DNA of 64,000 nt, taken from assembly GCF_042477335.2 (NCBI RefSeq), contig NC_091264.1, forward strand, positions 31,869,386 through 31,933,385. Reading direction: 5' to 3'. Position numbers and translations under genes: made by a program. The stretch comes from Ovis canadensis. Lineage: Eukaryota > Chordata > Mammalia > Artiodactyla > Bovidae. Shown piece after piece: positions 4-61,283 of this stretch. Numbering within the stretch: position 1 is the first letter of the stretch; each line of letters starts with the position of its first letter. The notes below the pieces were generated by a model that saw only the letters and a list, made by a program, of their open reading frames with translations, made no database searches and had not been told where the DNA came from.

Positions 4-22720
<22,717 letters not shown>

Positions 22721-23342: not shown

Positions 23343-24034
23343 TAAAAACTGCGGTGAAGTCAAGCAGTTGGGTCAGGAGAGGCAGCCACCTGCTTAGGAT
23401 GATACGCCTCAAAGTATCGATCTAGCAGGGCCTCCACCTCTGCTTCCTCGTAGTCCCACACCTGGAACTTGGAGCCATCGGCTGCTCCCCGGATCATGGC
23501 TGAGAGCACTGGCAAGAAGGATGGGGGTGAAGGTGGCTCCCCCGCCACTTCCACGCTGCCCCCCCACAGTGCCCATTGCCCTTCCCTTTCTGGGGTGGGC
23601 ACTGCGCTCAGAGGCCCCCAAGGAAGGAGAAGAGGGCAGGGACCTCAGAGAGCTGGGAAAGGAGGCCAGGGCTGGGAGGCTCACCTCGGCCAGATTTTGG
23701 GCGAAACAGGCACAGGACTGGTTTGCGGAGGGCCACTGCCCGGCCCAGCTCATACCCTACCCCCAGAGAGGGCTGGGTCACTTCTGCCACAACCACTGGG
23801 AAGAAAGGAGACCAAGGCTCACCCTCGGGTTTGTGAAGGATACACGACACAGTCTGGCTGTGGTGAGAAGGGAACTTAGGGAGTCCCTTGGAGGCGGGGA
23901 GCCAGGCAGGTCCAGGGGATCTAGGACCCCAGGGGAGTTTGCAGGCAGGACGGGGGACCACTCACCATCTGCCTGCTGCAGCCAGGCCACGTCCCGATCA
24001 TGGATGAGCTTGTCGCCTCCAGCAGCCTCTTCCC

Positions 24035-25588
24035 CTGTGGTTGAGGGAAAGCTGGTCAGGGGCCCACCCTGGGCTTCAGTTCTTCTCCTCTGCCCTAGAC
24101 ACCCTCAGGCCCACCTTGCTCAGGGAACGGGAGGGGACAGAGAGATGGCCTCCAAGGGCCCACCCAACACTAGGCTTCTATGAATTAAGGAAATGGAAGA
24201 GCCTGCAAGGAAAATGCAGTCCTGTGCAGGGGGGTGGAATGTGACCAACGACAGGAGTGGTACAGGTGAGATGGAGGGACTCCCTGCGGGTCAGTGATCA
24301 GAGGTAGAGAGGAGGAGGAATCACATCCCAGGTGGGGACAGGCAGGAGGAGCAAGAGGCTGGCCCGCGCAAGGAACCTAGGGCCCCACAGGCTCTCAGGC
24401 TTTGGTGGGGGTGAGAACCACCTGAGAACCAGATCAACTACAAAGACCCAGGTATGGATGAGCCTGGACCGCTGACTGAGCTCTCCAGGTGATTCTCATA
24501 CCCAGGCGAGTTTGAGAATCACTGCCTGAAAGCAAAGTGTAACCAGTGGGAGGTGGTGTGAAGGCAGGGGAGATCCTGGGGTCACAGGGATCCCAGCTTT
24601 CCAGCTTGATTCGATGTCACCCACTGGGAACATGAGGGTCACATGCCCCAGAGCAGGGCAGAATAACTGGAGAGCTCCTTAAAAATGGACTCAAAGGTTT
24701 TATCCCAGAATCTGCATTTTCAACAAGCTCCCTCAGAACACTGTTGAGCACAGGCCCTTCCCAAAGCACCAGCAACTTCCTGATGCATCTTTTTAAAGAG
24801 GATGCCCCAGGGACTTCCCTGGTGACCCAGTCGTTAAGAATCTACCTGCCAAGGCAGAGTACATGGATTCCATCCCTGAACAGAGAAGATTCCACATGCC
24901 CGTCGTGGAGCAACTAAGCTCACAGGGCACAACTGCCAAACCCAGGCTCCTCAACAAAAGAGGTCACTGCAATGAGAAGCCCGTGCGCAGCAATGAAGAC
25001 CCAGGGCAGTCAAAAATCAAATTCAAATAAAGAGGTCTCTGAGAACTGCATCCCGGCTCTGCCCATGGGAGGGAAAAGGGGGACACACCCCTGAGGTTTT
25101 CTGAGAAGTGCGAGAGTTCTGGCACCCTTTCCGAAGTAGAAAACCAGCCAGGATAAGGGACTACCTCGCCGCAGGAGCAGGAGGCACTGGCAACAGTCTG
25201 ATCAGGGGATCTGAGAGAGACGGTGTTCTCAGGACCTGGGGTCTGTCGAGTCAAGGATACCTCTACGTGAAAGGGAAGCTTTGTGCTAGGTGAGAGAGAA
25301 GAGGTCAGCGCGGCCCCCTCCCATCCTGCTCCTACAAAAGCCTCCGGAAGGAGCCCAAGCAGTTCTCCACAAAGGACCCAAAAGGTCAAGACAGTACCAA
25401 TGCGGGGAGTGGGCTCCCGGGTCGGACGCACGCGGTCTGATCCCTGGCCGCAGTTCCTTCTCAGGTAGGTCCCCGCCCGGAGGTTCCCCGCCGGTGGGCG
25501 AGCCCAGCGGCACGGACTGAGCGCAGTTTCTGTCGAGGGGCCAGAGCCGCCCTCTCCTTCCCCGCCGCCCGCGCCCTGGCAGCCTCAC
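24035..25588. other. DNPH1 intron 1 with repeat relics
   Basis: 1.55 kb between the decayed exon 1 and exon 2 on the minus strand. 24475-24535 and 24655-24780 look like MER5A-type relics (CTCTCCAGGTGATTCTCATA; CAGAATCTGCATTTTCAACA). A CHR SINE fills 24809-25030. From about 25480 the sequence becomes GC- and CpG-rich. Confidence 0.55.
24809..25030 (+). mobile_element. CHR-type SINE
   Basis: Plus-orientation CHR SINE: GGGACTTCCCTGGTGACCCA at the start, ATTCCATCCCTGAACAGAGA in the box-B position, and an AAATTCAAATAAA A-rich end. Confidence 0.8.
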
Positions 25589-25830
25589 CGCTCACATCCT
25601 GCTCAGCAGCCGCCAGGGCTCAGAAAGAACCGCCCCGAAGCGCCGCAGCCGGGACACGATCCCTACGTCCGGCTCCCTGTCCTCGCGTCCGCCGCGGATG
25701 GTCCATCAGAACAGTGCCTGCGGGCTGGTTCCCGGCGCTCCAGCCGCCGCGCGCCCCTCTCCGCCCCCGGGGGCGCCCGCGGGCTACCAGCGCCCCGGCC
25801 CCACCCACCCGTCCTGCGGAGCCTTCCTTC
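25480..25830. promoter_or_regulatory. CpG-rich island at DNPH1 5' end
   Basis: Dense CG dinucleotides and high GC content surround the remnant of DNPH1 exon 1. This is the expected place of the DNPH1 promoter (minus strand). No TATA box is obvious. The island is still visibly CpG-rich, suggesting it stayed unmethylated in the germ line fairly recently. Confidence 0.6.
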
Positions 25831-26515
25831 CCGAGGGTCCACACCTGTGAATTGTTGACGCCAAGGATATGCACGTCTGGGGACCCAGCGCCTCCCGGGC
25901 TTCTTTAACACCGCCAGGCAGAAGGCGGGGTCCTTGCCTCCTCACTCATGGCCCCTTGCCGCCCCCAGGTTCCCCCATCTCTGCTAAAGGCGACTCCTTC
26001 CTCCGAGCTCCTCAGGTCCCAAACCTTGGAGTCAATTTTTACTCTTCCCTTTTCATCAGCTCCTATACCCAATCCGTCAGCAAATCCTACAGGTTCTCTC
26101 TTCCAAATATCTCCAAACTTTGAAGCCAGCCTGTGGAGCAGCCAGCCTTGGGTCAGCTCCCGGTTTCCCAGTAAAACCCCTCTGCCGACGCGGGGTTGTG
26201 GGTGAAGGGAAGAGTACAGATTACTGCCAGGCCCCAAAAGCAGGGAATTCAGGACAGGGGGCTCAAAACACCCAAACTCCCTGCTGGGGTACAAGAGAGC
26301 ATTTTTAAGGCCAGGTGAGGGCCGGGAGTCCCAGGGTATGGTATGTTCCTGCACAGTTGTCTGATTGGTTGATGCTGAGCTAACAGAGCCCTGTGTCAGG
26401 GGTTAAGGTTCCAGTAGGTCTGTGGGCCACGTGCTCATGGTCATCAGGTAGTTAATTTCTTCCATTTGGTGGGTGGTGGCTTGAGCATCTGCCAAGTACC
26501 TAGATACTATTATCT

Positions 26516-26564: not shown

Positions 26565-27835
26565 CTTGGGTGGTGGTTGTTCAGTCGCTCAGTCTTTGGA
26601 ACCCCATAGACTGCAGCACACCAGGCCTCCCTGTCCTTCACCATCTCCCAGAGCTTGCTCAAATTCATGTCCATGGAGTCGGTAATGCCATCCCACCATC
26701 TCGTCCTCTGTCGTCCCCTTCTCCTCCTGCCTTCAGTCTTTCCCGCCATCAGAGTCTTTTCTCACGAGTTCTTCACATCAGGTGGTCAAAGTATTGGAGC
26801 TTCAGCATCAGTCCTTCCAATGAATATTCAGGACTGATTTCCTTTTTTAGGATTGACTGGTTTGATCTCCAGCTGTCCAAGGGACTCTCAAGAGTCTTCT
26901 CAAACATCACAGTTGAAAAACATCAGTTCTTCAGCACTCAACCTTCTTTATGGTCCAACTCTCACATTCATACATGACTACTGGAAAAATCATAGCTTTG
27001 ACTATATGGACCTTTGTTGGCAAAGTTTTGTCTTTGCTTTTTAATATGCTGTCTAGCTTAGTCACAGCTTTTCTTCCAAGGAGTAAGTGTCTTTTAATTT
27101 CATGACTGTAGTCACCATCTGCAGTGATTTTGGAGTCCAAGAAAATAAAGTCTGTCACTGTTTCCATTGTTTCACCATCTATTTGCCATGAAGTGATGGG
27201 ACCAGACGCCATGACCTTAGTTTTTTGAATGTTGAGTTTTAAGCCAGCTTTTTCACTCTCTTTCACTTTCATAAAGAGGCTCTTCAGTTCCTCTTTGCTT
27301 TCTGCCATAAGGGTAGTGTCATCTGCATACCTGAGGTTATTGATATTTCTCCTGCAGTATTGACTCCAGTTTGTGCTTCATCCAGTCTGGCATTTTGCAT
27401 GATGTACTCTGCATATAAGTTAAATAAGCAGGGTGAAAATATACAGCCTTGATGTACTCCTTCCCCAATTTTGAACGAGTCCATTGCTCCGTGTTCAGTT
27501 CTAACTGTTGCTTCTTGATCTGCATACAGGTTTCTCAGGAGGCAGATAAGGTGGTCTGGGATTCCCATCTCTTTACAAATTTTGCAGAGTTGTGATCCAC
27601 ACAGTCAAAGGCTTTAGTGTAGTGAATGAAACAGAAGAAGATGCTTTTCTGGAATTTTCTTGCTTTTTCTATGATCCAACGGATGTTGGCAATTTAATCT
27701 CTGGTTCCTCTCTGCCTTTTCTAAATCAGGCTTGAACATCTGGAAGTTCTTGGTTCACGTACTGTTGAAGCCTAGCTTGGAGAATTTTGAGCATTACTTT
27801 GCTAGCATGTGAAATGACTGCAATTGTGCAGTAGT
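26565..27835 (-). mobile_element. BovB (RTE) LINE, 5'-truncated
   Basis: On the minus strand the element encodes pieces of an RTE-clade reverse transcriptase. A segment with KAFDCVDHNKL-like residues lies near 27600. MGIPDHLICLLRNLYADQEA starts at 27568. The YADD catalytic region lies around 27315-27335, followed by a long C-terminal stretch (26931-27308). The parts fall in different frames, so the copy is dead. The 3' tail at 26570-26640 (plus strand GTTGTTCAGTCGCTCAGTCT) is the normal BovB end. It is 1.27 kb against about 3.2 kb for a full element, so 5'-truncated. Confidence 0.93.

Positions 27836-37721: not shown

Positions 37722-61283
<23,562 letters not shown>

Follow-up and report, generated by a model that had tools for sequence, protein, structure and literature searches.

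The DNPH1 gene of this caprine bovid was found to have a first exon disabled in several ways and, downstream of it, exons 2–4 that remain intact. The canonical first exon is dead in this genome and the normal enzyme is likely to be absent, and exons 2–4 probably still code for protein by way of an altered start. The explanation that we favour overall, with somewhat better than even confidence, is that exon 1 has decayed, that exons 2–4 are transcribed and translated from a changed start, and that the product is unlikely to be the normal hydrolase.

The DNPH1 locus and the condition of its exons

The window, that is, the whole stretch of 64,000 nucleotides analysed, corresponds to C20:31869386-31933385 (contig NC_091264.1) within a 2.97-Gb genome of 42 contigs. 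DNPH1 (Rcl, C6orf108; 2'-deoxynucleoside 5'-phosphate N-hydrolase 1) lies on its minus strand between CUL9, a piece of which matched the PDB entry for Cullin-9 (E=5.6e-61), and, on the other side, TTBK1, a piece of which matched tau-tubulin kinase 1 (E=1.3e-36). This is the location of the orthologue; a cattle gene list in a passage of PMC7655849 gives the order CUL9, DNPH1, TTBK1, and a second list, in a passage of PMC8396740, places SLC22A7 between CUL9 and DNPH1.

Exons 2–4 have AG acceptors and GT donors and together give a continuous 108-codon frame closed by TGA, as expected from the earlier note, which had described them as intact. The joined frame matched rat Rcl (E=1.5e-54) and human DNPH1 (E=1e-51), the E values against human and rat chains ranging from 1.5e-54 to 2.4e-50 among the matches listed. 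Ninety-two of the 108 residues are identical to human DNPH1 (the last 11 human residues being provisional), and the translation matched the Pfam family Nuc_deoxyrib_tr (PF05014) with E=5.6e-12, over profile positions 45–97 of 117 only. As in the human and rat proteins, Asp80 and Glu104 are present. By similarity as well as by location, the locus is the caprine orthologue of DNPH1. The first in-frame ATG downstream of exon 1 sits in the last exon (LSAMIRG), also as previously claimed. On the opposite strand, a 261-codon open frame runs across exons 2–4 at 23398–24183 (+), probably by chance in GC-rich DNA.

Exon 1 differs from its human and rat counterparts in being broken: the codons for Tyr24 and His56 are lost, Cys26 has become a stop, and ATG is absent at the expected translation start, leaving no open frame from a start codon. 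Read in the canonical frame on the minus strand, the relic gives PQALF, a stop, and then WTIRGGREDREPDVGIVSRLRRFGAVLSE, and codon-by-codon reading placed a change of Gly27 to Trp next to the Cys26 stop. One base is lost at His56, before LAAAEQDVS, and at the LTEHV element the relic has VLSE followed by a frameshift, with the Glu55 codon kept and His56 lost. In the donor frame, by which exon 2 is entered, the relic reads ALAAAEQDVS after its stop. The coordinates of these features are collected in Table 1. Each of the lesions named in the earlier note (the TGA at Cys26, the missing Tyr24, the one-base loss and the missing ATG) was seen on direct reading, as were the stop in the donor frame and the retained donor at 25589. 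Disabling changes of the reading frame, the mark of a pseudogene, were thus found in exon 1 only.

Table 1. Positions in the window of features of the DNPH1 locus
Feature	Position	Strand	Remarks
DNPH1 exon 1 relic	25589..25760	-	Homology 25741-25589; contains an in-frame TGA, lacks the Tyr24 codon and has lost 1 base ahead of LAAAE
TGA in canonical frame	25706..25708	-	Position of human Cys26; Tyr24 codon missing just upstream
TGA in donor frame	25620..25622	-	Frame entering exon 2
GT donor of exon 1	25587..25588	-	Kept; GCG/GTGAGG
ATG opening a 28-codon frame	25704..25706	-	Closed by TGA 25622-25620; shares the frame of exon 2
CTG in context GCCCTGG	25614..25616	-	In frame with exons 2–4; candidate non-AUG start
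CpG island over relic exon 1	25300..25900		By observed/expected ratio
Exon 1b, a fossil alternative exon within intron 1	25126..25182	-	Joined to exon 2 in C5 retrocopy; present donor score -2.9
DNPH1 exon 2	23966..24034	-	Intact; Asp80 kept
DNPH1 exon 3	23685..23795	-	Intact; Ser98 and Glu104 kept
DNPH1 exon 4	23360..23508	-	Intact, with stop
ATTAAA	23338..23343	-	Probable polyadenylation signal

Other parts of the relic are well preserved. The motifs IRGGREDR and IVSRLRRFG are unchanged, which is odd for an exon long dead. On the splice-donor matrix used, the exon 1 donor scored 4.2, compared with 6.3 and 6.0 for the donors of exons 2 and 3. The CpG observed/expected ratio reached 0.97 (25500–25699) and 1.00 (25600–25799) over the relic, against a window median of 0.27.

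Search for an intact first exon, a second copy and a start codon

In a tblastn search of the window with human exon 1, the relic was matched at 25723–25619 with E=1.1e-8, compared with E=0.23 for the next best match, so that the relic match is beyond chance; the whole human protein matched the relic at 25741–25619 (E=1.3e-7). When the 174-aa human protein was searched against the genome, exon 1 was matched at the relic alone (28.6 bits, E=0.0018), and an intact exon 1 would outscore the relic in such a search. The broken relic was thus the sole exon-1-like sequence in the window and in the genome protein search, in line with what had been claimed from the window. We considered an intact DNPH1 copy elsewhere and rejected it, the same protein search having yielded the locus, three broken retrocopies and two chance-level matches (C19, E=0.089; C3, E=3.4). 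A 181-base DNA query of the relic found itself alone in the genome in a search insensitive to diverged copies; little weight can be put on negative results of this kind of DNA search, because the 74% match on C5 described below was missed by its own query. The PF05014 profile found DNPH1 exon 3 alone, below the cut-off, in a genome search that scored single exons and is a weak test. When related mammalian DNA was sought in public collections, a genome-contig collection gave six prokaryote homologues, and a viral-contig collection gave none either by protein or by DNA pattern.

The three DNPH1 retrocopies (on C5, C13 and C1) are intronless and broken by stops and frame-shifting gaps, and we used them as in-genome examples of unconstrained DNPH1 sequence. 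At the protein level the C1 copy gave weak matches (E=1.0 and 0.44), and it was identified by its DNA. Both it and the C13 copy start inside exon 2 and are therefore uninformative on exon 1. In the C5 copy (C5:104219045-104222245), exons 2 and 3 and a part of exon 4 are fused and a poly(A) tail is present, and the 55–58 bases directly upstream of its exon 2 matched window positions 25182–25126, in intron 1, with 74% identity (E=3e-6). The alignment score was 27, compared with a maximum of 18.2 in 300 shuffles. The joining of this piece of intron 1 to exon 2 indicates that an older DNPH1 transcript had another exon before exon 2, and is evidence that the fossil exon 1b is a former alternative first or second exon of DNPH1. 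It is in phase with exon 2 and has no in-frame ATG. At the 5' end of the C5 copy a clear target-site duplication was not found, the best pair agreeing at 8 of 9 bases. A genome DNA search for other copies of exon 1b gave the locus alone, yet it missed the C5 copy and was thus insensitive.

We then looked at possible starts. Among single-piece first exons between 40000 and 24050, 365 ATG/donor pairs open into exon 2. Below 29500, no ATG was paired with a donor scoring at least 4 except in three frames of a retroelement near 27400. The remaining ATG candidates are weak, namely, 25949, 25706 with a donor at 25667, and three short ones at 24897–24864. At the first of these (25949–25941, minus strand), on the edge of the CpG island, ATGA is followed directly by GTGAGG and, if spliced there, would put exon 2 in frame, with a donor score of 0.2. 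Selenocysteine at the Cys26 TGA was rejected, since exon 1 has lost not only Cys26 but also Tyr24, its frame and its start. The CTG at 25616, in the context GCCCTGG, is the best remaining start and is put forward as a candidate; non-AUG starts are uncommon. About 1.2 kb upstream of the relic, at 26931–27604 (-), fragments of a reverse transcriptase were seen (Pfam RVT_1; one above and one below the cut-off), presumably belonging to a BovB element.

Full-length enzyme, whole-gene decay or altered start

Two proteome studies, one of sheep and one of goat, list DNPH1. In the Altay sheep rump fat proteome, W5P8E1 is listed as DNPH1 with 1 peptide and 5.75% coverage (PMC6164786), at a theoretical 18.7 kDa and pI 5.40, the table passages of that paper leaving the species of the entry unnamed. 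In the goat muscle exudate proteome, A0A452EMT6 is listed as DNPH1 with 3 peptides, in the corresponding passage of PMC9740416. What was taken from the two listings is the accession and the peptide count, with coverage, mass and pI for the sheep entry. For a protein of 18.7 kDa, 5.75% coverage would correspond to 10 residues out of 174, and this is exactly the length of two tryptic peptides from exons 2–4, KPVLCLFRPK and QVAASPDPTA. As far as these table values go, the sheep and goat listings suggest a DNPH1 protein product.

Since 18.7 kDa corresponds to about 174 residues, the W5P8E1 model, as tabulated, has a full-length N-terminus. We rejected two candidates for its source. Read-through of the relic in 24 variants gave 18.2–18.5 kDa and pI 5.0–5.3, and the mismatch in mass and pI leaves the model unexplained by read-through; a single ATG/donor pair giving 174 residues had 19.1 kDa and pI 5.81. 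The length of the sheep model, together with the goat entry of the same name, the former in-phase splicing of 25182–25126 to exon 2 recorded in C5, and the retention of Asp80 and Glu104 in exons 2–4, would be accounted for if the full-length enzyme survives, its N-terminal catalytic part being supplied by an unrecognised first exon or by an exon 1 missing from the assembly. We consider this improbable: the sole exon-1-like sequence in the genome protein search is the relic, which lies in the right place, adjoining exons 2–4, the ATGs below 29500 with an adequate donor (score at least 4) belong to three retroelement frames only, and exon 1b combines the lack of an in-frame ATG with a donor that is now weak.

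Unlikely as well, in our view, is a whole gene that is a young pseudogene, in which exons 2–4 are intact owing to the short time elapsed and the damage is clustered in exon 1 by chance. To this reading belong the several ways in which exon 1 is disabled and the failure to find a convincing ATG into exons 2–4, while the kept CpG island, the stops carried by all three retrocopies of the same genome and the naming of DNPH1 in the tabulated sheep and goat proteomes speak against it. Comparison with other mammals gave results on both sides. Among residues shared by human and rat, 12 of 35 were changed in exon 1 (a count that includes three stop or deletion positions) compared with 7 of 89 in exons 2–4 (Fisher one-sided p=5.9e-4), and the difference persisted for substitutions only, with the three disabling cells dropped (p=0.0066). 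With exons 2–4 limited to residues 67–160, for which the human letters were taken from PDB alignments, 7 of 85 were changed (p=8.3e-4; substitutions only, 0.0085). Over all exon 1 positions, the window differed from human at 19 of 47 and rat at 12 of 47, which was not significant (p=0.094). In exons 2–4, the window differed from human at 16 of 108 residues and rat at 19, and in the first 94 of these residues at 12 and 9, respectively; exons 2–4 are therefore ordinary, not unusually conserved, and in those 94 residues no more conserved than in rat, as a young pseudogene would allow. Compared with the retrocopies, 20 window-specific sites comprised 8 synonymous and 12 nonsynonymous changes, showing no clear constraint, which is likewise compatible with a pseudogene. 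At several of the 12 nonsynonymous sites the window agrees with human or rat, so that these probably reflect changes common to the retrocopies, and no conclusion was drawn from the counts for this reason.

A point against simultaneous decay came from a simulation in which the whole gene became neutral from one moment, run at nine values of neutral distance. The result was expressed as a tail product, which is not a p-value, of the chance of an exon 1 as broken as that seen, or more so, and the chance of exons 2–4 as clean as those seen, or cleaner; inputs were stand-in exon 1 codons, a manual alignment and a lineage distance set at 0.2 (0.3 for one of the settings). The largest joint tail product was 0.00024. 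Across seven settings, which included a threefold exon 1 mutation rate, half the indel rate and a faster background change, the peak was lowest at 0.00028 and reached 0.0087 under the most lenient, and was thus small in every setting tried. The earlier note had offered either a recent loss or a new start and had suggested that DNPH1 may be lost in this lineage. As regards the canonical enzyme, its loss is supported, no intact exon 1 having been found in the genome protein search and the Tyr24 and His56 codons being destroyed in the relic; the absence of any protein at all is disfavoured, and the decay simulation and proteome listings favour a new start.

Two further explanations are very improbable. 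An assembly or haplotype error in exon 1 could be entertained in that one assembly was read, but there are many separate changes, with 19 of 47 codons unlike human and a stop and two deletions among them, zero N bases were found in the window, and the CUL9 and TTBK1 pieces read cleanly. Conservation of exons 2–4 as regulatory DNA or as an overlapping transcript, unrelated to DNPH1 protein, could draw on the long opposite-strand frame at 23398–24183, but is opposed by the protein-level similarity to human and rat, the precise splice sites, the stop and the tabulated proteome listings of DNPH1.

Proposed product and its significance

The catalytic triad of human DNPH1 consists of Tyr24, Asp80 and Glu104, and turnover is lowered about 150-fold by mutation of Glu55 and about 11-fold by H56A, as given in passages of PMC10603095. 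The Tyr codon reported as lost in the earlier note is thus a known active-site position, according to the same passages. Tyr24, Glu55 and His56 are all encoded by exon 1. Of the triad, Asp80 and Glu104 are present at this locus and the Tyr24 codon is deleted in the relic. Since Tyr24, Glu55 and His56 are catalytic in human, the normal enzyme is probably gone here, and judging from the sequence, a normal hydroxymethyl-dUMP hydrolase is probably not made.

In the reading that we favour, based on an altered start, the decayed exon 1 would no longer encode the first beta-strand, helix 1 and the LTEHV element. Transcription from the old CpG-island promoter would continue, with the relic serving as a 5' leader that is joined to exons 2–4 by splicing at the donor kept at 25589. 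Translation of these exons would begin at a different codon from the original one, possibly at the CUG at 25616, to give a protein of about 118 residues; with the DNPH1 frame extended to the TGA at 25622, a peptide such as AAAEQDVSGEEAAGGDK is predicted at the N-terminus. The second and third helices would be retained in this protein, along with the dimer interface, the helical extension, Asp80 and Glu104, whereas Tyr24, Glu55 and His56 would be missing; some activity may remain, or the protein may do something else. Continued selection, transcription, the start codon and the loss of activity are all inferred. More tentatively, and with clear reservations, we propose that in caprines, and perhaps in bovids at large, DNPH1 is now a short protein that has lost the N-terminal active-site half and is translated from a codon other than AUG within what used to be exon 1.

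The locus resembles lineage-specific mammalian gene losses (GBA3, for example) in that one enzyme gene has been hit by several disabling lesions in a particular lineage. It differs in that the damage here is confined to exon 1 and the rest is clean. Some genes are kept as N-terminally truncated or non-AUG-start isoforms, in which the old first exon becomes a 5' leader and the downstream frame is retained. This is the layout that we propose for DNPH1, with a putative transcript and a candidate start codon. No report of DNPH1 loss in ruminants was found in the literature searched, of which subscription journals mostly form no part.

If sheep-like animals do lack normal DNPH1, they would reveal how a mammal copes with hydroxymethyl-dU nucleotides when the enzyme is missing. 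Attempts at inhibiting DNPH1 and PARP jointly have raised this question. If exons 2–4 are still translated, the N-terminal catalytic part would have been discarded and the rest of the protein kept, and the sheep and goat DNPH1 database entries may have a wrong N-terminus and a wrongly inferred function.

Two further features were observed in the flanking genes. The CUL9 region contains a minisatellite at 17866–18586 whose repeat unit is roughly 27 or 55 bases long, corresponding to 25.4 or 12.9 copies. On the other side, an open frame of 153 codons at 44516–44977 (-) matched ribosomal protein S15a over its full length of 130 residues (E of about 1e-52), and this open copy apparently lies inside an intron of TTBK1, the extent of that gene being judged by eye.
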